NCBI GenBank assembly: GCA_012797735.1
Contig: JAAZOP010000036.1
Coordinates: forward strand, 1-38,776
Origin: Myxococcales bacterium
GTDB taxonomy: Bacteria > Myxococcota_A > Polyangia > DRWM01 > JAAZOP01
Direction of reading: 5' to 3'
Length of the DNA stretch: 38,776 bases
The translations under genes and the position numbers were made by a program. Positions within the stretch are counted from its first letter, which is position 1. Every line of letters begins with the position of its first letter. Positions 20,471 through 29,300 of the stretch are shown piece after piece. Below the pieces are notes generated by a model, which worked only from the letters and a program-made list of their open reading frames with translations, was not told the DNA's origin and ran no database searches.

Positions 20471-21973
20471 ATGACGAGCGAGGCGGAGGCCGGGAAGTCC
20501 CCGGGGTTGTTGCGGCAGTTCCCGCGGACGTTCTGGGTTGCGAACGTGATGGAGCTGTTCGAGCGCGGGGCGTACTACGGCCTCAACGCGCTGCTCGGCC
20601 GCTACCTGACCGACCGGACCGGCGGGGCGCTCGGGTTCTCCGAGGACGAGGCGGGGCTGCTGCAGAGCGTGGTCTACGCGCTGACCTACGTGCTGCCGAT
20701 CCTGGGCGGCGCGCTGGCCGACCGCTACGGCTACCGGCGGATGCTCCTGGTCGCCTTCTCGTTCCTGGCGGCGGGCTACTTCGCCTCGGGGCAGGTCGAC
20801 GGCTACGGCGCCGTGTTCGCGATGCTGCTCGTGATGGCCACCGGCTCGGGGCTGTTCAAGCCGATCATCTCCGGGACGATCGCGCGAACGACCAACGAGC
20901 GGAACTCGGGCTTCGGCTTCGGCGTGTACTACTGGACGATCAACCTCGGGGCGCTCGTGGCGCCCTTCGTGGCCGGGCAGCTCCGGGATCGGTTCGACTG
21001 GAGCGCGGTGTTCACGGCGTCGTCGCTCTACTGCGCGGCGATGCTCCTCCCGACGATCTTCCTGTACCGCGACCCGCCGCGGCCGCCGAGCACCAAGACC
21101 CTGGGACAGGTGCTGGCCGGAGCGCTCGACGCACTGTCCGACGCGCGGTTCATGCTGCTGATCTTCGTCTACTCGTGCTTCTGGATCCTGTACTTCCAGA
21201 ACTTCGGCACGGTGCTGTGGTACCTGCGCGATTTCGTCGATCCCGCGCCGGTCAACGCCTTCTTCGCGCGTCGAGGCCTGGAGTTCCGCTTCGACGCCGA
21301 GCACGTGACGATGATCAACGCGGGGACGATCGTGCTGCTGCAGATGCTGGTGAGCCGGGTGGTCAAGAACGTCCGGCCGCTGCCGACGATGGTGGCGGGG
21401 ATCCTGATCGGCTCGCTGGGGTTCCTGTGCCTCGCCCTGTCTCGCGAAGCGTGGGTCTTCATCCTCGGCATCGCCGTGTTCTCCGTCGGCGAGATGACCT
21501 GCCACCCCAAGTACCTCGGGTACATCGGGCAGATTGCGCCGGCGGACAAGAAGGCCAACTACATGGGCTACGCCTTCCTCTACGGCGTGGTCGGCTCGCT
21601 GGTGGGGGCCAACGTGGGCGGCGAGGCGTACAGCGCGCTGCTCGCGCCGCTGAAGGGCGATCCGAACGCGGGACCGACCCTGCGCTGGTTCTGGCTCGTC
21701 TTCGCGGTGCTCGGGGTCGCCACCATGCTCGGGCTGCTGGTCTACGACCGCCTGTTCGGCCGGGACGCTCCGGAGACGCGACGCCGCGCCGGCCGGGTGG
21801 TGATGGCGATCTACGTGCTGCTGCTGGCCGGCGCGCCGGCGCTTCTGGCATGGGTCTGGTCCGTCCGGGGCGCGCTGCCGGTCAAGACCGCGATCCAGGC
21901 CGGGATCATGATCCTCCTCGGCGGCGGCGGCCTCGCGATGCTGCGCCGCGGGCGGGTCAGAGCAGGAAGCTGA
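20471..21973 (+). CDS. POT-family proton-dependent peptide transporter
   Basis: 500 residues, about twelve to fourteen hydrophobic segments. The family signature appears early as MELFERGAYYGLNALLGRYL, followed by YVLPILGGALADRYGYRR and the GSGLFKPIISG region typical of POT/PTR proteins. It should import di- or tripeptides with protons across the inner membrane. AAGGAGGG stands eight bases before the ATG at 20471. Its last 17 bases overlap the end of the barrel gene on the other strand. Together with the secreted peptidase at 13181-15340 it fits use of peptides as nutrients (inference). Confidence 0.94.
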   Translation: MTSEAEAGKSPGLLRQFPRTFWVANVMELFERGAYYGLNALLGRYLTDRTGGALGFSEDEAGLLQSVVYALTYVLPILGGALADRYGYRRMLLVAFSFLAAGYFASGQVDGYGAVFAMLLVMATGSGLFKPIISGTIARTTNERNSGFGFGVYYWTINLGALVAPFVAGQLRDRFDWSAVFTASSLYCAAMLLPTIFLYRDPPRPPSTKTLGQVLAGALDALSDARFMLLIFVYSCFWILYFQNFGTVLWYLRDFVDPAPVNAFFARRGLEFRFDAEHVTMINAGTIVLLQMLVSRVVKNVRPLPTMVAGILIGSLGFLCLALSREAWVFILGIAVFSVGEMTCHPKYLGYIGQIAPADKKANYMGYAFLYGVVGSLVGANVGGEAYSALLAPLKGDPNAGPTLRWFWLVFAVLGVATMLGLLVYDRLFGRDAPETRRRAGRVVMAIYVLLLAGAPALLAWVWSVRGALPVKTAIQAGIMILLGGGGLAMLRRGRVRAGS

Positions 21974-22664
21974 AGCCGACGGCGAGGTTGAACTCGAGGC
22001 TTCGGTAGCCGAAGTAGAGGTCGTCCGGATACTCCGGACGTTCGTCGTGGTCCTGTCCGTGGAACGTCATCACCACGTCCGCCAACAGCGAGATCACGAA
22101 CCAGTCGACGAGGTCGACCCCCAGGCCGAAGCCGACCTGCAGGAACGCGCCGGCGTCGCCGGTGATGTCGTACAGTTCCCACCAGCCGTTGACGATCTCC
22201 GGCCCGAGCCCCAACCGTCCGAAGAGCCAGCCCCAATCCCACAGGCCGGCCAGGCGGGCGCCGGCGAGCATCCGCATCCGGCCGGCATCCAGGTTGTCGT
22301 CGTCGTGGCTGTACGGTCCGGAAGCGAGGGGAACATCGGGGTCCCAGACCACGTAGTCGACACCGGTCTCGGGGCCGAGCAGGCAGCGACCGTTCTCGCC
22401 GCCGACCGGGAACAGCCAGGCCAGGTGCAGTCCGCCCAGGAAGGCCGGTTCCAGGGCGTCGGCATACGGAACCGCGTCCGCGCCGTAGTCCTCGAGAACC
22501 GTTCCCGTGACGAAGGCGACGGCGGGCAGGGCCGTGCCGAGGTGCGGTTCGAGCACGACGGTCGGGACGCGCTGGATCCGGCCGGCGGCCGGCGGCGCGA
22601 CCAGCAACGCGCCCGCCGCCGCGAGCAGCGCCGCCCCGAAACCGCCGGCGTCCCGTCGCCTCAC
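21957..22664 (-). CDS. Small outer-membrane beta-barrel-like protein
   Basis: 235 residues: a signal peptide (LLAAAGALLVAPPAAG), then alternating hydrophobic/aromatic strands such as GGLHLAWLFPVGG, RLGLGPEIVNGWWELYD, AFLQVGFGLGVDLVDWFVISLLADVVMTF and a C-terminal strand FNLAVGFSFLL, typical of small outer-membrane barrels. No specific family is recognised. Start GTG at 22664 overlaps the TGA of the upstream gene as GTGA, which implies translational coupling; an ATG at 22724 would overlap 64 bases and lacks a signal. The two proteins may act in one envelope complex (inference). Confidence 0.75.
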   Translation of the reverse strand: MRRRDAGGFGAALLAAAGALLVAPPAAGRIQRVPTVVLEPHLGTALPAVAFVTGTVLEDYGADAVPYADALEPAFLGGLHLAWLFPVGGENGRCLLGPETGVDYVVWDPDVPLASGPYSHDDDNLDAGRMRMLAGARLAGLWDWGWLFGRLGLGPEIVNGWWELYDITGDAGAFLQVGFGLGVDLVDWFVISLLADVVMTFHGQDHDERPEYPDDLYFGYRSLEFNLAVGFSFLL

Positions 22665-24727
22665 CACTGCACCCCGAAATGGAGGAACGGGAAGCCGAAC
22701 GGCACGTACCGCAGCACGGTCCACGCCTCTTCGAACATCGGCACCACGAACGAGACATCGCCCCAGATCGATTCCCCCATGATCCGAATACCGTAGATCA
22801 GGGTCCAGACCTCTCCGTAGGGGAAGACGTCGTCCCCCTCCTCATCGATCAGCCCCGGCGCCAGCAGCTCCGCGTTGAGCTTGACCATGCGCGACACGCG
22901 CCAGCTCCCGCCGACGCTCGGCAGGAACAGGACGAACGTGTACCGGTCGACCTCTTCGTTCGTGTCGTACCCGCCGGCGCTCCGGTCGAAGATCGTGGCG
23001 CCCCAGATCCCGAGCGCCAGGTTGAGGAAGGCGTCCGGGGAGCCGATGGTCAGCGCGGGGGTGGCGCCCCACACCAGGACCACGAGATCGATCTCGGGGT
23101 AGAGGAACCAGCAGCCGAGCTGGGTGTTGAGCCCGAGCGAGACGCTGTCGGCGACCTGCACGGTGAACCGCGCCGTGGGCGTCACGCCGACGTTCATGAT
23201 CGGGACGGTGACCGCCGCGCCCAACTCGACGTGCGGATTGAGGGTGTAGTCGAGGTTCCACATTCCGACGTCCGTGGTGCGGATGCTCCAGGTGCGCTCG
23301 CGCCGGAGCAGCGCGGTGGAAGTCCAGATCACGCGGCCGGGGTCCGGGTCCGCATAGGGCCAGCCGGCCGGCTCCTCCGGCCCCCCGGCCGGTTGCTCGA
23401 CTCCGGCCGGTCCCTCCAGCCCCTCCGGGATCGGCACCGGCGGCGGCACGGGCGGCAACGCTCCCGGCCCGGGAGCGGCCAGCCGGAGCGCCTCGCCGAG
23501 GTCCAGGACCATCCGCGAGAACTCGGAGCCCGTGGCCAGGTCCGGCGCGAAGGCGGCGCTGCGACGGCAGTCGTCGACCGCCCACTGCAGCCGGTCGAGC
23601 GCCGGGTTGCCGTTCTCCCGCCACGCCTCGAGCACCTCCTCGCGGGCGAGGAGGTTGAGGGGCATGCCGAGGCGCCGGAGGTCGCAGATCACGGTGTTCC
23701 AGTCGAGCATCGCCGCGAGGAGGGGGGCGAGGCCCGAGGCATCGGCGGCGTAGTTGCGCCGCAGCCGGCCGGTGCGCGTTCCGGCGTCGGCGGGTGCCGC
23801 CACGGCGCACGCGGTGGAGGGCGCCCCCGGCAGCGGCACCGCCGGACCCTCGGGTCGCAGCCAGCGGATGTCGATCGCCCCGGCGACGGCGGCGGCCAGG
23901 TCGTCGGTCGGCGCGGCGGCGCGCAGCGCCGCGAAGCCGGCCGCGGTCTCCACGGTTCGCATCGCCTCGGCCAGCGCGGAAGTCGGCAGCACGTACGCCA
24001 CCTCGGGGTCGTCCCGGTGCCGCATCGCCACCACGCCGACCCAGCGCCCGGCCTCGTCCAGCACCGGCGCGCCGAGCACTCCGGGCGCCGAGCGGACCGC
24101 GATCTCGCAGAGGCCGTAGACCCGCGGCTGCCGCACGGTCGCCTCGACCGGCCGCCCCGCCGCCCCCTGCGCGCCCGGGGTCACGGCAAAGACGGCGAGC
24201 CGCTGCCCGACCGTCACCGGGACGTCGGCGGCGGAGAGCGTGGCCGCCGCGGCGGGACGCGGCGCGGGGAGCAGGAACGCGACGTCGGTCGCCGGCGGCA
24301 GCGACACCCCGGCCGGTACCAGCTCCGGGGCGCCGGGCATCGCGAGCAGGACGAACGGGGCCCCGGCGACCACCGTGCGGGCGGTGACCGTCACGCCGTC
24401 GCCCGTCAGCGTGACGCCGGTGGCGACCGTGGCGACGGGGATGCCGAGCCGCTCGTCGCCGAACGGCTCGGTGCCCACGCTGCGCGGGACGATCACCGCC
24501 ACCGCGGCCGTCGTGGGCGGCACGATCGGCTCGCCGTCGTCCGGTTCCGGAACCGGTTCCACGGCCGCGGGCGGGAGAGGCGGCGCATCGGGGGGCGGGA
24601 TCGGCTCGCCGGGCGGCGCGATCTGCGCCGCCGCCGCCGCCGGCAGACAGAGCGGCAACAGGGCGATCGCGAGCCGAGCCGTCCGGGATGTGCCGGGAAG
24701 CCGCCGCCGCCGCTGCATCGGACGCAT
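22661..24727 (-). CDS. Pseudoprotease-beta-barrel fusion, exported
   Basis: 688 residues. A signal peptide (LAIALLPLCLPAAAAAQ) and a Pro-rich stretch precede a trypsin/HtrA-like domain (~75-260). At the expected triad positions it has Thr118 (TARTVV in place of TAxHVV), Asp148 (ATDVAFL) and Leu218 (GVLGAP in place of GNSGGP). The 30- and 70-residue spacing matches HtrA proteases, but His and Ser are gone, so it should bind rather than cut. A helical region and a Pro-rich linker lead to a C-terminal ~230-residue barrel-like region ending FPFLHFGVQW. Role unknown. The ATG at 24727 lacks a good ribosome site, so the start is uncertain (ATG 24718 is also possible). It is coupled to the small barrel gene by GTGA. 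Confidence 0.78.
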   Translation of the reverse strand: MRPMQRRRRLPGTSRTARLAIALLPLCLPAAAAAQIAPPGEPIPPPDAPPLPPAAVEPVPEPDDGEPIVPPTTAAVAVIVPRSVGTEPFGDERLGIPVATVATGVTLTGDGVTVTARTVVAGAPFVLLAMPGAPELVPAGVSLPPATDVAFLLPAPRPAAAATLSAADVPVTVGQRLAVFAVTPGAQGAAGRPVEATVRQPRVYGLCEIAVRSAPGVLGAPVLDEAGRWVGVVAMRHRDDPEVAYVLPTSALAEAMRTVETAAGFAALRAAAPTDDLAAAVAGAIDIRWLRPEGPAVPLPGAPSTACAVAAPADAGTRTGRLRRNYAADASGLAPLLAAMLDWNTVICDLRRLGMPLNLLAREEVLEAWRENGNPALDRLQWAVDDCRRSAAFAPDLATGSEFSRMVLDLGEALRLAAPGPGALPPVPPPVPIPEGLEGPAGVEQPAGGPEEPAGWPYADPDPGRVIWTSTALLRRERTWSIRTTDVGMWNLDYTLNPHVELGAAVTVPIMNVGVTPTARFTVQVADSVSLGLNTQLGCWFLYPEIDLVVLVWGATPALTIGSPDAFLNLALGIWGATIFDRSAGGYDTNEEVDRYTFVLFLPSVGGSWRVSRMVKLNAELLAPGLIDEEGDDVFPYGEVWTLIYGIRIMGESIWGDVSFVVPMFEEAWTVLRYVPFGFPFLHFGVQW

Positions 24728-24901: not shown

Positions 24902-26059
24902 ATGAAGCGCAACGCGATCCTGTGGACGCTGGCCGCGGCGGCGGGGTTGCTCGGAGCCGCGGGTTGCGGCGACGACACCTCGACCCCGACCGAGGACTGC
25001 ACGAACGACACCGACGACGACGGCGACGGCCAGGCCGACTGCAACGACTCCGACTGCACGGCGCACCCGCACTGCACGTCGGTGACCTCCGAGGTCGACT
25101 GCGACGACCTGCGCGACGACGACGGCGACGGGCGGACCGACTGCGACGACTCGGACTGCGCCGGAGCCGCGGTGTGCGTGCCGCGGGAGACCTCGTGCCG
25201 CAACGGGGTCGATGACGACGGCGACGGGCGGACGGACTGCGAGGACGACGAGTGCGACGGGCGCCCGCCGTGCGGGGTGACGGAGGAGACGAACTGCGAG
25301 GACGCCGTGGACGACGATGGGGACGGGCAGACGGACTGCGACGACGGGGACTGCGACGACGACCCGGCCTGCGGGGGAACCCCCGAGACGGACTGCGCGA
25401 ACGCCGTGGACGACGACGGGGATGGGCAGACGGACTGCGACGACGGGGACTGCGCGGCGGACGCACACTGCGTCCCGGAGAGCGACTGCAACGACACGGT
25501 GGACAACGACCTGGACGGGGCGACGGACTGCGACGACAGCGATTGCGCGGCGGCAGCGGTGTGCCTGCCGGAGAGCGACTGCGGGAACACGGTGGACGAC
25601 GACCTGGACGGGGCGACGGACTGCGACGACAGCGACTGCGCGGCCGACCCGGCGTGCTACGTCACCGGCAACGACAGCTGCACGAGTCCGCATGTGCTGC
25701 CGGACGATCCGAACGGGACGTGGCGGGGCGCGATCGATGCGCTGGCCAGCGACCACCGCGGCACTTGCGGCGGCAACGGCGGCCGGGACGCCGTGTTCCA
25801 GTTCACCACGACCGCCCGGGCGACGATCACCGCCTCGTTGGAGGGGAGCACGTTCGACACGGTGCTGTACCTGCGCAGCGGCGCGTGCACGGTTCCGGGC
25901 ATGACGGAAGAGGCGTGCAACGACAACGCCTCGGCCGGGGTCACCTGGTCGCGGATCAGCACGACCGAGAATGCCGGCACGTACTGGCTCGTCGTGGACG
26001 CCGCCTCCGCCGCCACGACGACCGGCACGTACGTCCTGACGATCACGGTCACGCCCTGA
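24902..26059 (+). CDS. Lipoprotein with seven Cys-rich DxDxDG repeats and PPC-like domain
   Basis: 385 residues. A clear lipoprotein signal (AAAAGLLGAAGC) is followed by seven units of about 28 residues plus short linkers. Each has four Cys and a calcium-binding-type loop DxDxDG (typical unit core: VDDDGDGQTDCDDGDC). The C-terminal ~130 residues (from NDSCTSPHVLPDD) look like a PPC-type beta-sandwich, with FQFTTT, FDTVLYLRSG and GTYWLVVDA. Such proteins are anchored in the outer membrane, with repeats that probably fold around Ca2+ and disulfides. Repeats of this sort are common in Myxococcota-like genomes; no enzyme is apparent. GGGAGGG precedes the ATG. It converges on nuoI. Confidence 0.9.
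   Translation: MKRNAILWTLAAAAGLLGAAGCGDDTSTPTEDCTNDTDDDGDGQADCNDSDCTAHPHCTSVTSEVDCDDLRDDDGDGRTDCDDSDCAGAAVCVPRETSCRNGVDDDGDGRTDCEDDECDGRPPCGVTEETNCEDAVDDDGDGQTDCDDGDCDDDPACGGTPETDCANAVDDDGDGQTDCDDGDCAADAHCVPESDCNDTVDNDLDGATDCDDSDCAAAAVCLPESDCGNTVDDDLDGATDCDDSDCAADPACYVTGNDSCTSPHVLPDDPNGTWRGAIDALASDHRGTCGGNGGRDAVFQFTTTARATITASLEGSTFDTVLYLRSGACTVPGMTEEACNDNASAGVTWSRISTTENAGTYWLVVDAASAATTTGTYVLTITVTP
24995..25657 (+). repeat. Seven in-frame Cys/Asp-rich repeats
   Basis: Units of roughly 28-35 codons lie inside the lipoprotein gene. Units 4-5 and 6-7 are almost identical in DNA, with periods of about 99 and 93 bases. This suggests growth by recent duplication or slippage. Units 6 and 7 use DLDGATDC where the others have DGDGxTDC. 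Confidence 0.85.
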
Positions 26060-26108: not shown

Positions 26109-26639
26109 CTACTTCTTGCGCGGGTTGGCGGTGTGCACGTTGCCGGCGGTGTCGCTGATCGACAGCAGCAGGTTCCGCTCGTAGATCAGGTGCGGTCGCG
26201 CCTCGACGGGGCGTGGGTGCAGTCCGGTGTCCATGCGGATCGCGTCGCACGGGCAGGCCTCGACGCACAGCCCGCACGACACGCAGCGCAGTTCGTCGAT
26301 CCAGAACTCCACCGGGTACTTCTCGACGTGGGCCAGCGGGTGCTCCGGCGGGTACTCGCCGGCGACGATGTGGATGCACTCGGCGGGGCAGGCGGTCTGG
26401 CAGCACAGGCAGGCGGTGCAGCGGGGGGCGCCGTCGTCGCGCTGGGTGAGGCGGTGGAGGCCGCGGAAGCGCGGCGGGTAGGGCCGGCGCTGTTCGGGGT
26501 AGAGCAGCGTGACGGTGTCGCGGCGTCCGAAGACGTTGCGAAAGAAGTGGCGCAGCGTGACGCCCAGGCCGCGCACCGTCTCCGGGACGTACGACTGCTC
26601 CCAGAGGTTGCGGTCGGGACGGCGGACGACGTACGGCAT
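26109..26639 (-). CDS. nuoI: Complex I subunit NuoI (two 4Fe-4S clusters)
   Basis: 176 residues. It has two classical ferredoxin motifs, RCTACLCCQTACP and RCVSCGLCVEACP, each able to hold a 4Fe-4S cluster (N6a/N6b in complex I). It passes electrons from the peripheral arm toward NuoB. AGGAGG overlaps the nuoH stop codon and lies just before the ATG at 26639, so translation follows nuoH directly. It is the last gene of the operon: the next gene downstream is on the other strand. Confidence 0.95.
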   Translation of the reverse strand: MPYVVRRPDRNLWEQSYVPETVRGLGVTLRHFFRNVFGRRDTVTLLYPEQRRPYPPRFRGLHRLTQRDDGAPRCTACLCCQTACPAECIHIVAGEYPPEHPLAHVEKYPVEFWIDELRCVSCGLCVEACPCDAIRMDTGLHPRPVEARPHLIYERNLLLSISDTAGNVHTANPRKK

Positions 26640-26649
26640 GCCCGGCCTC

Positions 26650-27774
26650 CTAGCGCAGCGCCGCCAGCACGACGGCGGTGACGGCGATGTTGCCCAGCGA
26701 GAGCGGCAGCAGGACCTTCCAGCCGAGGTCCATCAGCTGGTCGTAGCGGAAGCGCGGCAGGGTCCAGCGCAGCGCCATCTGCAGGAAGACCATCGCGCCC
26801 ACCTTGACGGTGAACCCGAGGAGCTGGACCAGCACGACGACCCCGTGCGGCCAGTTCCAGACCCAGGTGTCGAGGAACGGCAGATCGACGTGCAGTCCGT
26901 CGGCGAACAGGAACGGAACGTCCCACCCGCCGAGGAAGAACACGGTGAGGAGGATCGCGAGGACGACGATTTCCATCAGCTCGCCGAGGAAGAACATGGC
27001 GAACTTCATGCCCGAGTACTCGAGGAAGTAGCCGGCGACGATCTCCGACTCGCCCTCGGGCAGGTCGAAGGGCACGCGCTTGCTCTCGGCGATCCCGGCG
27101 ACCAGGAACAGCAGGAACGCCAGGGGCTGCACCAGGATGCCCCAGACGTGCTGGTGCTGCCACAGGACCATCTGCTCGATGCGCAGGGTGCCGAAGACGA
27201 GGATGCAGCCGACGAGCGAGGCGCCGAGGGTCACCTCGTAGGAGATCATCTGGCTCGCGGCGCGCAGCGAGCCCAGCAGCGAGAAGCGGTTGTCCGAGGC
27301 GGCGCCGGCGAGCACCGCGCCGACGACGCCGGTGCCGGCGATGGCCAGCACGAACAGGAGGCCGACGTCGATCGTCGCGACCTGCAGCGTCGTGGCCCAG
27401 GGGCCGGAGAACAGCGGGCCCTCGTGGTTGACGGCGCCGAGATGGGCGAAGTCGAGCGTGGGGCCGAAGGGGACGACGGCGAAGGTGACGACCACCGGGA
27501 AGAAGGCGAGGATCGGGGCCAGGGCGTGCAGCAGCCGGTCGGCGCGCCGCGGGATGAAGTCCTCCTTGACCATCATCTTCAGACCGTCGGCGAGGATGTG
27601 GATCAGGCCCCACAGGCGGAACCGCCCGAGGTTGGCCCGGTGGGGGCCGACGCGGTCCTGCATCATCGCCGACAGCCGCCGTTCGACCCAGACCATCAGC
27701 GCGCCGCCGGTGAGGATGAACAGCACGAAAGCGACGATCTTCGCGACGGTCATCCAGACGAAGAAGGCGTTCAT
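26650..27774 (-). CDS. nuoH: Complex I membrane subunit NuoH
   Basis: 374 residues with about eight to nine hydrophobic helices. Conserved parts are RVGPHRANLGRFRLWG, HILADGLKMMVKEDF and the acidic quinone-chamber loop ESEIVAGYFLEYSGMKFA. NuoH forms the quinone-binding chamber where the peripheral and membrane arms meet. Its ATG overlaps the nuoG stop by four bases (ATGA), with GGGAGG upstream. The common GPNR triad reads GPHR here. Confidence 0.95.
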   Translation of the reverse strand: MNAFFVWMTVAKIVAFVLFILTGGALMVWVERRLSAMMQDRVGPHRANLGRFRLWGLIHILADGLKMMVKEDFIPRRADRLLHALAPILAFFPVVVTFAVVPFGPTLDFAHLGAVNHEGPLFSGPWATTLQVATIDVGLLFVLAIAGTGVVGAVLAGAASDNRFSLLGSLRAASQMISYEVTLGASLVGCILVFGTLRIEQMVLWQHQHVWGILVQPLAFLLFLVAGIAESKRVPFDLPEGESEIVAGYFLEYSGMKFAMFFLGELMEIVVLAILLTVFFLGGWDVPFLFADGLHVDLPFLDTWVWNWPHGVVVLVQLLGFTVKVGAMVFLQMALRWTLPRFRYDQLMDLGWKVLLPLSLGNIAVTAVVLAALR

Positions 27775-29300
27775 GGCGCACCTCCCTCCGCCGCCGGCCG
27801 GGGCAGCCGCGGCGCCACGGCCGCCCGGACGTCCGCCGCGCTGCGGAACGGCAGGCCCAGGTCCAGGCGGCGGGCCAGGCGTGCCAACAGGTCGGGAACC
27901 TCGAGCGCCTCGCCGCGGGGCGACATCGCCTGCGGAAACTCCTGCGCCTGCCCGCGGGCGTTGACGTAGGTCCCGGCCGTTTCGGCGAACGACGGGCTCG
28001 GCAGCCGCACGTGCGCCGCCTCGGGGAGCGGGCCCCGCCGCGGGGCGATCGACACCAGCGCCTCCAGCCGCAGCAGGCCGGCCGCGGCGGCGGGGCCCTG
28101 GGTCGCCGCGGCGGCGCCGAGCGCCACGGCGCCGCGGATCGAGCCCGCGGTCGCCTCATCGACAAGGCGTTCCAGGGGCTCCGGTTCGGCGCCGAGCATC
28201 GATCGTACGCCGGCGCGGTTCGGGTTCTTGTCGGCGTGGCGCAGCAGGTCGTCCGCCGTACCGGCCGTCCGCCCGGTCACGAAGAAGCGCTCGACCCCGA
28301 GCGCCTCGCGGGCGAAGGCGGCCAGCGCCCAGTTCTCCTCGCAGGAGTGCTCGGCCGAGAGCACCGCGGCCCGCTGGGTCTTCGGCACCTTCCGCAGCAG
28401 GGTCGCCGCCTCCGCCAGCGCCTCGTCCCAGGCGACCGGCCGGGCGTCGTCGCCGCGCCCCAGTTCGGGAGCGGTCAGGCGGTGGTCGTTGTGCAGGCGG
28501 AACGCCAGCACGCCGTCGTCGCAGAGCCAGCTCCGGTTGAGCGCCGGATTCTCGCGCGGGCGGAGCCGGAACGCCTCGCCGCGATGGTGATCCAGGAACG
28601 CGTTGCAGCCGGTGGCGCAACCGGGGCAGATCGTGGGGGTCGAGGCGAGGAACCAGACGCGGCACTGGAAGCGGAAGTCCCGGGACGTCAGCGCGCCGAC
28701 GGGGCAGACATGGGCGGTCATCAGCGAGTACGCATGGTCGAGGGTGCGGCCGGGGGCGACGGCGATCTCCGAGTGGTCGCCGCGATGGACTTCGATCAGG
28801 ACCGGGTCCCGGACGACCTCCGCGCAGAACCGGACGCAGCGGGTGCACATCACGCACCGTTCGGCGTCGTAGATCACGTGCGGGCCGAAGATCGCGCGCT
28901 TGCGCTTGCGGACTTTCCCCTCCTCGGACCACAGCCGCGAGGCCTTGAGGTCGTACAGCATGTAGTAGTCCTGGAGCTTGCACTCGCCGGCCTGGTCGCA
29001 GATCGGGCAATCGACCGGGTGGTTGAGCAGCAGGTACTCCATCATCGCCCGGCGCGCCTCGCGGACCTTCGGGGTGTCGGTATGGACGACCATGCCGTCG
29101 GCGGCCTCCAGCTGGCAGGACGGCTGGAGCTTGGGCTGCTTCTCGACCTCGACCAGGCACATCCGGCAATTCGCCGCGACGGACAGCTCGGGGTGCCAGC
29201 AGAAGTGGGGGATGTCGATGCCCAGCGCGCGGGCCGCCGCGATGACCGTCGTGCCCTCGGCGACCTCGATCTCCCGTCCATCGATCGTCAGCTTCCGCAT
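27771..29300 (-). CDS. nuoG: Complex I Fe-S subunit NuoG (short form)
   Basis: 509 residues. The N-terminal ferredoxin domain has the N1b pattern C-x10-C-x2-C-x13-C. Then come the N5 motif H-x3-C-x2-C-x5-C (HPVDCPICDQAGEC) and the N4 motif CVMCTRC with a later CPVGAL. The N7 pattern C-x2-C-x3-C-x27-C (starting CPGCATGC) is also complete; many organisms have lost this cluster. The C-terminal molybdopterin-oxidoreductase-like region is much shorter than in ~900-residue NuoG proteins. It would channel electrons inside the peripheral arm, normally from NuoE/F, which are absent from this operon. Spacing to nuoD is 10 bp. Confidence 0.94.
   Translation of the reverse strand: MRKLTIDGREIEVAEGTTVIAAARALGIDIPHFCWHPELSVAANCRMCLVEVEKQPKLQPSCQLEAADGMVVHTDTPKVREARRAMMEYLLLNHPVDCPICDQAGECKLQDYYMLYDLKASRLWSEEGKVRKRKRAIFGPHVIYDAERCVMCTRCVRFCAEVVRDPVLIEVHRGDHSEIAVAPGRTLDHAYSLMTAHVCPVGALTSRDFRFQCRVWFLASTPTICPGCATGCNAFLDHHRGEAFRLRPRENPALNRSWLCDDGVLAFRLHNDHRLTAPELGRGDDARPVAWDEALAEAATLLRKVPKTQRAAVLSAEHSCEENWALAAFAREALGVERFFVTGRTAGTADDLLRHADKNPNRAGVRSMLGAEPEPLERLVDEATAGSIRGAVALGAAAATQGPAAAAGLLRLEALVSIAPRRGPLPEAAHVRLPSPSFAETAGTYVNARGQAQEFPQAMSPRGEALEVPDLLARLARRLDLGLPFRSAADVRAAVAPRLPRPAAEGGAP

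Follow-up and report, generated by a model that had tools for sequence, protein, structure and literature searches.

Bacterial trypsin-fold pseudoproteases have rarely been described, and in the literature searched MamO is the sole worked bacterial example. MamO of magnetotactic bacteria is a pseudoprotease of HtrA origin that carries a membrane domain; besides binding metal it stimulates MamE, its active relative, and there are independent cases in three magnetotactic taxa (Hershey et al. 2016, PMC4794232). No paper on bacterial pseudoproteases with barrels was found in the literature search. An earlier note on the DNA studied here had proposed that a gene of a Myxococcales bacterium encodes a catalytically dead HtrA-like domain fused to a beta-barrel, and that no described system has this shape. 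The latter statement holds only in part, since MamO is a described pseudoprotease with a membrane domain, although the domain to which it is joined is a different one.

MamO is the nearest precedent for the protein described here. In both, an HtrA-derived trypsin-like domain without catalysis is followed by a C-terminal membrane domain and appears to have arisen beside an active relative, and a role by binding, as in MamO, is proposed here. MamO keeps the catalytic His and Asp and has Thr in place of Ser, whereas the present protein has lost His and Ser. The membrane part of MamO is a TauE-like transporter domain and that of the present protein a predicted outer-membrane domain; Pfam gave no match to the MamO type of membrane domain. 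MamO also carries a surface di-His metal site in its protease domain, while residues 74-260 of the present protein contain one His (residue 237). The HtrA, DegP, DegQ and AlgW proteases (S1C) are related in the protease domain, but the present protein lacks their catalytic His and Ser, has no PDZ domain and is fused to a predicted barrel. The trypsin-like autotransporters of type V secretion (SPATE proteins) also combine a trypsin-like domain with a C-terminal barrel. Two further proteins found in the survey (L013 and L014; G001:C105 and G003:C5) resemble the present one in having an exported trypsin domain before a barrel-like C-terminal end that closes on Trp, but their triad is active and they contain Cys-rich repeats (DUF7107). 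Their C-terminus was not detectably related to the barrel domain studied here (hhalign probability 0.5%).

The window, i.e. the whole stretch of DNA analysed, comprises 38,776 nucleotides. The pseudoprotease-barrel reading frame (24727-22661, minus strand) encodes an exported protein of 688 amino acids. The GC content at its codon positions 1, 2 and 3 was 0.75, 0.55 and 0.94, and a long plus-strand reading frame overlapping it showed the mirror GC pattern, as in an antisense frame; this supports coding on the minus strand. Translation probably begins at Met4 (24718), because the ortholog described below begins with the equivalent Met. The following features were recognised:

24626..24718, minus strand: signal peptide, residues 4-34, likely start at Met4 (sequence; start of the ortholog)
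24509..24625, minus strand: proline-rich segment, residues 35-73 (sequence)
23948..24508, minus strand: trypsin-like pseudoprotease domain, residues 74-260 (Pfam Trypsin_2, Thr/Asp/Leu columns, hhalign, dN/dS)
24376-24374, 24286-24284 and 24076-24074, minus strand: codons of Thr118, Asp148 and Leu218
23477..23947, minus strand: helical region, residues 261-417 (common to the active siblings)
23348..23476, minus strand: proline-rich linker, residues 418-460 (sequence; low conservation)
22664..23347, minus strand: C-terminal predicted beta-barrel domain, residues 461-688, ending in FGVQW (family evidence)
21957..22664, minus strand: downstream gene, 235 amino acids, GTG start, signal peptide, small predicted outer-membrane protein

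Homology of residues 74-260 to trypsin-like proteases was established by several comparisons. The Pfam family Trypsin_2 matched this region over the whole profile (1-144 of 144) with an E-value of 1.6e-6 and 29.3 bits, the curated cut-off being 27.6 bits. Single-sequence searches of the PDB found AlgW and MucD at 7e-4 to 3e-3, and a profile of the pseudoprotease family together with its active siblings found DegP-like structures at 1e-24, which is mostly the signal of the siblings. When the close active siblings were left out of both profiles, hhalign still aligned the profile of the dead pair (the protein and its ortholog) with 20 active but distantly related proteases from the class at 98.8% probability over 179 columns. 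At the level of sequence comparison, retention of the trypsin fold is well supported. The full-length protein was also modelled with AlphaFold2 from a two-sequence alignment with its ortholog, giving a pLDDT of 31, and the model was discarded. The description as HtrA-like applies to the protease domain but not to the overall architecture, as Trypsin_2 was the only family found when the whole protein was searched against Pfam at E-values up to 10 and a PDZ domain was absent.

In the alignment with active relatives, Thr118, Asp148 and Leu218 stand exactly where the others have their catalytic His, Asp and Ser. The assignment of these residues in the earlier note is borne out, and by the Trypsin_2 match the domain is more than a chance spacing of residues. 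The ortholog has Ala, Asp and Leu in the same columns, and the GNSGG motif has become GVLGA in the pseudoprotease. Among the loci taken, 30 of 32 distinct trypsin domains carry His, Asp and Ser, in the same columns and none shifted, and the two exceptions are the dead protein and its ortholog. The homologs with a shifted active triad that the earlier note had named as a refutation were thus not seen in this sample. The catalytic His and Ser have been lost, and loss of catalysis with the trypsin fold kept, as the earlier note had suggested, is well supported. It is very improbable that catalysis persists through shifted or unusual residues. Asp148 is kept and Ser residues such as S213 lie nearby, but the nucleophile position has no Ser, in the ortholog Ala replaces the catalytic His, and the single His of the domain, H237, lies beyond the Ser position; for this last reason no alternative triad was apparent on inspection of the sequence.

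The ortholog was found in a second genome of the genus (G002; locus L015, contig JAFGHH010000548.1, which is evidently identical with G002:C117) and is 76% identical; the pseudoprotease was seen in these two genomes of one genus. An active sibling, cut by a contig end, is present in the same genome as the dead protein (G000:C185), and full-length counterparts of it occur in two more genomes of the genus, G002 and G001. The active siblings (L002, L005, L011) share with the dead protein an export signal, the trypsin domain and the same helical region, the latter at 25-39% identity. Their His-Asp-Ser triad, however, is intact, and in the full-length ones the C-terminus, also of membrane type, is a different one that lacks the barrel domain. 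A maximum-likelihood tree groups the dead pair with the active siblings as sisters (support 99/97). The stem of the dead pair is 2.35 changes per column long, while its tips measure 0.14 and 0.10 compared to about 0.10-0.16 for the active siblings. Between the two dead orthologs, dN/dS was 0.31 for the pseudoprotease, 0.30 for the helical region and 0.36 for the barrel; for the active protease, compared across the two genomes concerned, it was 0.26. Purifying selection is evident from these values, estimated for the pseudoprotease from one pair of genomes. The least constrained part is the signal peptide with the proline-rich segment (dN/dS 0.76), and residues 421-459 of the proline-rich linker are 59% identical in the ortholog. 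The strands past the Ser position are among the best-kept parts of the pseudoprotease, with 18 of 45 residues identical to the active sibling and with PG..G and GVV..R.RD retained.

The long stem, the ordinary tips and the dN/dS of 0.31 point to fast change followed by renewed constraint. The protein is a true pseudoprotease, and judged from one genome pair it arose by duplication, then diverged rapidly and came under constraint again. The very long stem branch would also suit a gene in decay or an assembly error, but this explanation is largely refuted: the frame is intact both here and in the ortholog from a different genome, the tip branches are as short as in the active siblings, and dN/dS is 0.31.

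The C-terminal domain (461-688) had no credible relative in Pfam, NCBIfam or PDB profile searches performed with the barrel family. For the class, 15 of 318 genomes contained its family, and for the phylum 46 of the 379 that were sampled, with the whole domain aligned in most. Most members are stand-alone proteins consisting of a signal peptide, a proline-rich stretch and the domain, and among about 40 distinct members examined the trypsin domain was fused only in this lineage. The C-terminus is modular in this sense, and by its distribution the domain behaves as an independent module. Other N-terminal modules were also observed in the barrel family: L012 carries a repeat-like one (HEAT by eye), and L101 and L106 have a further exported domain, an unnamed one.

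In many family members the last strand shows hydrophobic alternation and the final residue is Phe or Trp. The family profile showed alternation with the beta period at z 3.1, a value reached by about 2 in 1000 shuffles, and no helical period. In the same test, neither the trypsin region nor the helical region gave a beta alternation signal. With an earlier alignment and the octanol scale the beta alternation was not significant (z 1.2), compared to z 3.1 with the wider alignment and another scale, and for this reason the alternation is regarded as moderate evidence for a barrel. An AlphaFold2 model of the domain from a two-sequence alignment with one ortholog reached a pLDDT of 29 and was discarded. 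The barrel-like C-terminus claimed in the earlier note is consequently backed by the family evidence but not confirmed by structure. Residues 461-688 are likely to be an outer-membrane beta-barrel, the closure of which we infer.

The GTG start of the downstream gene (22664) overlaps the stop of the pseudoprotease-barrel gene by four nucleotides (GTGA, 22664-22661), and this junction is kept in the ortholog, in agreement with the proposal of a second, translationally coupled barrel gene. The downstream protein is small and exported, shows beta alternation (z 2.5) and is predicted to be located in the outer membrane; no relation between it and the barrel domain was detected. The gene pair is conserved, lying between a POT transporter gene and the nuo genes both here and in G002, while in G004, a genome of the same order, no such pair adjoins the POT gene. 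No promoter- or terminator-like consensus was seen in the region. The family of the downstream protein has tandem copies elsewhere in the same genome: at L084 (G000:C567:1768-3149) two tandem, overlapping paralogs stand beside an MFS transporter gene. Tandem MFS-adjacent paralogs occur also in G002, whereas G001 yielded just one relative.

The pair is adjoined by NADH dehydrogenase genes (26109-29300, minus strand; nuoI-, nuoH- and nuoG-like by eye). A divergent gene (24902-26059, plus strand) encodes a predicted lipoprotein of about 385 amino acids with tandem DDDGDG Cys-rich repeats, recognised by eye. Lipoproteins of this kind are often seen in myxobacteria.

The reading that best explains the whole, to which we give a probability of about 0.5, is that of an exported pseudoprotease tethered to the outer membrane and serving as a non-catalytic binding or scaffold module in the periplasm. 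An active trypsin-like protease would have been duplicated together with its helical region, and the copy would have been joined to an independent outer-membrane-type domain. It would have lost His and Ser of the triad, changed fast, and become conserved again. The protein would be exported through Sec and inserted into the outer membrane by its C-terminal domain, with the pseudoprotease and the helical region hanging in the periplasm on the proline-rich tether. There they may function as a binding part that holds on to a peptide, an unfolded protein or a partner protein. The co-translated small outer-membrane protein would be the first candidate for such a partner, followed by the active sibling. 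The loss of two catalytic residues from a domain that is still conserved, with the strands past the Ser position among its best-kept parts, is best explained by a binding or scaffold role. It is tempting to go further and picture the pseudoprotease groove on the barrel as a periplasmic ligand or client binder, with the co-translated small barrel as its client or channel partner. We consider this more detailed version rather unlikely, but if true, a dead protease would form the basis of a device for assembly or transport at the outer membrane.

The periplasmic location is itself inferred from topology. The N-terminal extension of an even-stranded barrel is normally periplasmic, and for this reason a periplasmic adaptor is favoured over the surface receptor considered in the earlier note, which now seems the less likely of the two. 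A surface receptor or adhesin would result if the pseudoprotease passed through the barrel as in autotransporters, and the order of the parts (signal, passenger, linker, C-terminal barrel) does resemble type V secretion, where trypsin-like passengers exist in the SPATE proteins. However, no autotransporter barrel or IgA-peptidase family match was found in Pfam with either the whole protein or the C-terminal domain, and the passenger is absent from most members of the barrel family, so that such display appears improbable. Somewhat less improbable, yet still doubtful, is a regulator comparable to MamO or iRhom, in which the dead copy would bind and control the active sibling (G000:C185) or the substrates of that sibling. 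Dead and active copies co-occur in both genomes having the dead one, and MamO, which activates the protease MamE without catalysis of its own (PMC4794232), followed the same path of duplication and subsequent catalytic loss. On the other hand, the genes are unlinked, the sibling in G002 lying by mutS and a kinase gene and the dead copy by the nuo genes, and G001 (79% complete) has the sibling with no dead copy detected, so the sibling may not need it. The kept strands past the Ser position would be expected for any binding role too, including that of the periplasmic adaptor.

As the active sibling is found in the same genome and the loss can be placed on the tree, the path from an enzyme to a binding module is directly testable in this lineage. 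If the reading as an outer-membrane-tethered adaptor is true, the outer membrane would be a new location for a pseudoprotease.
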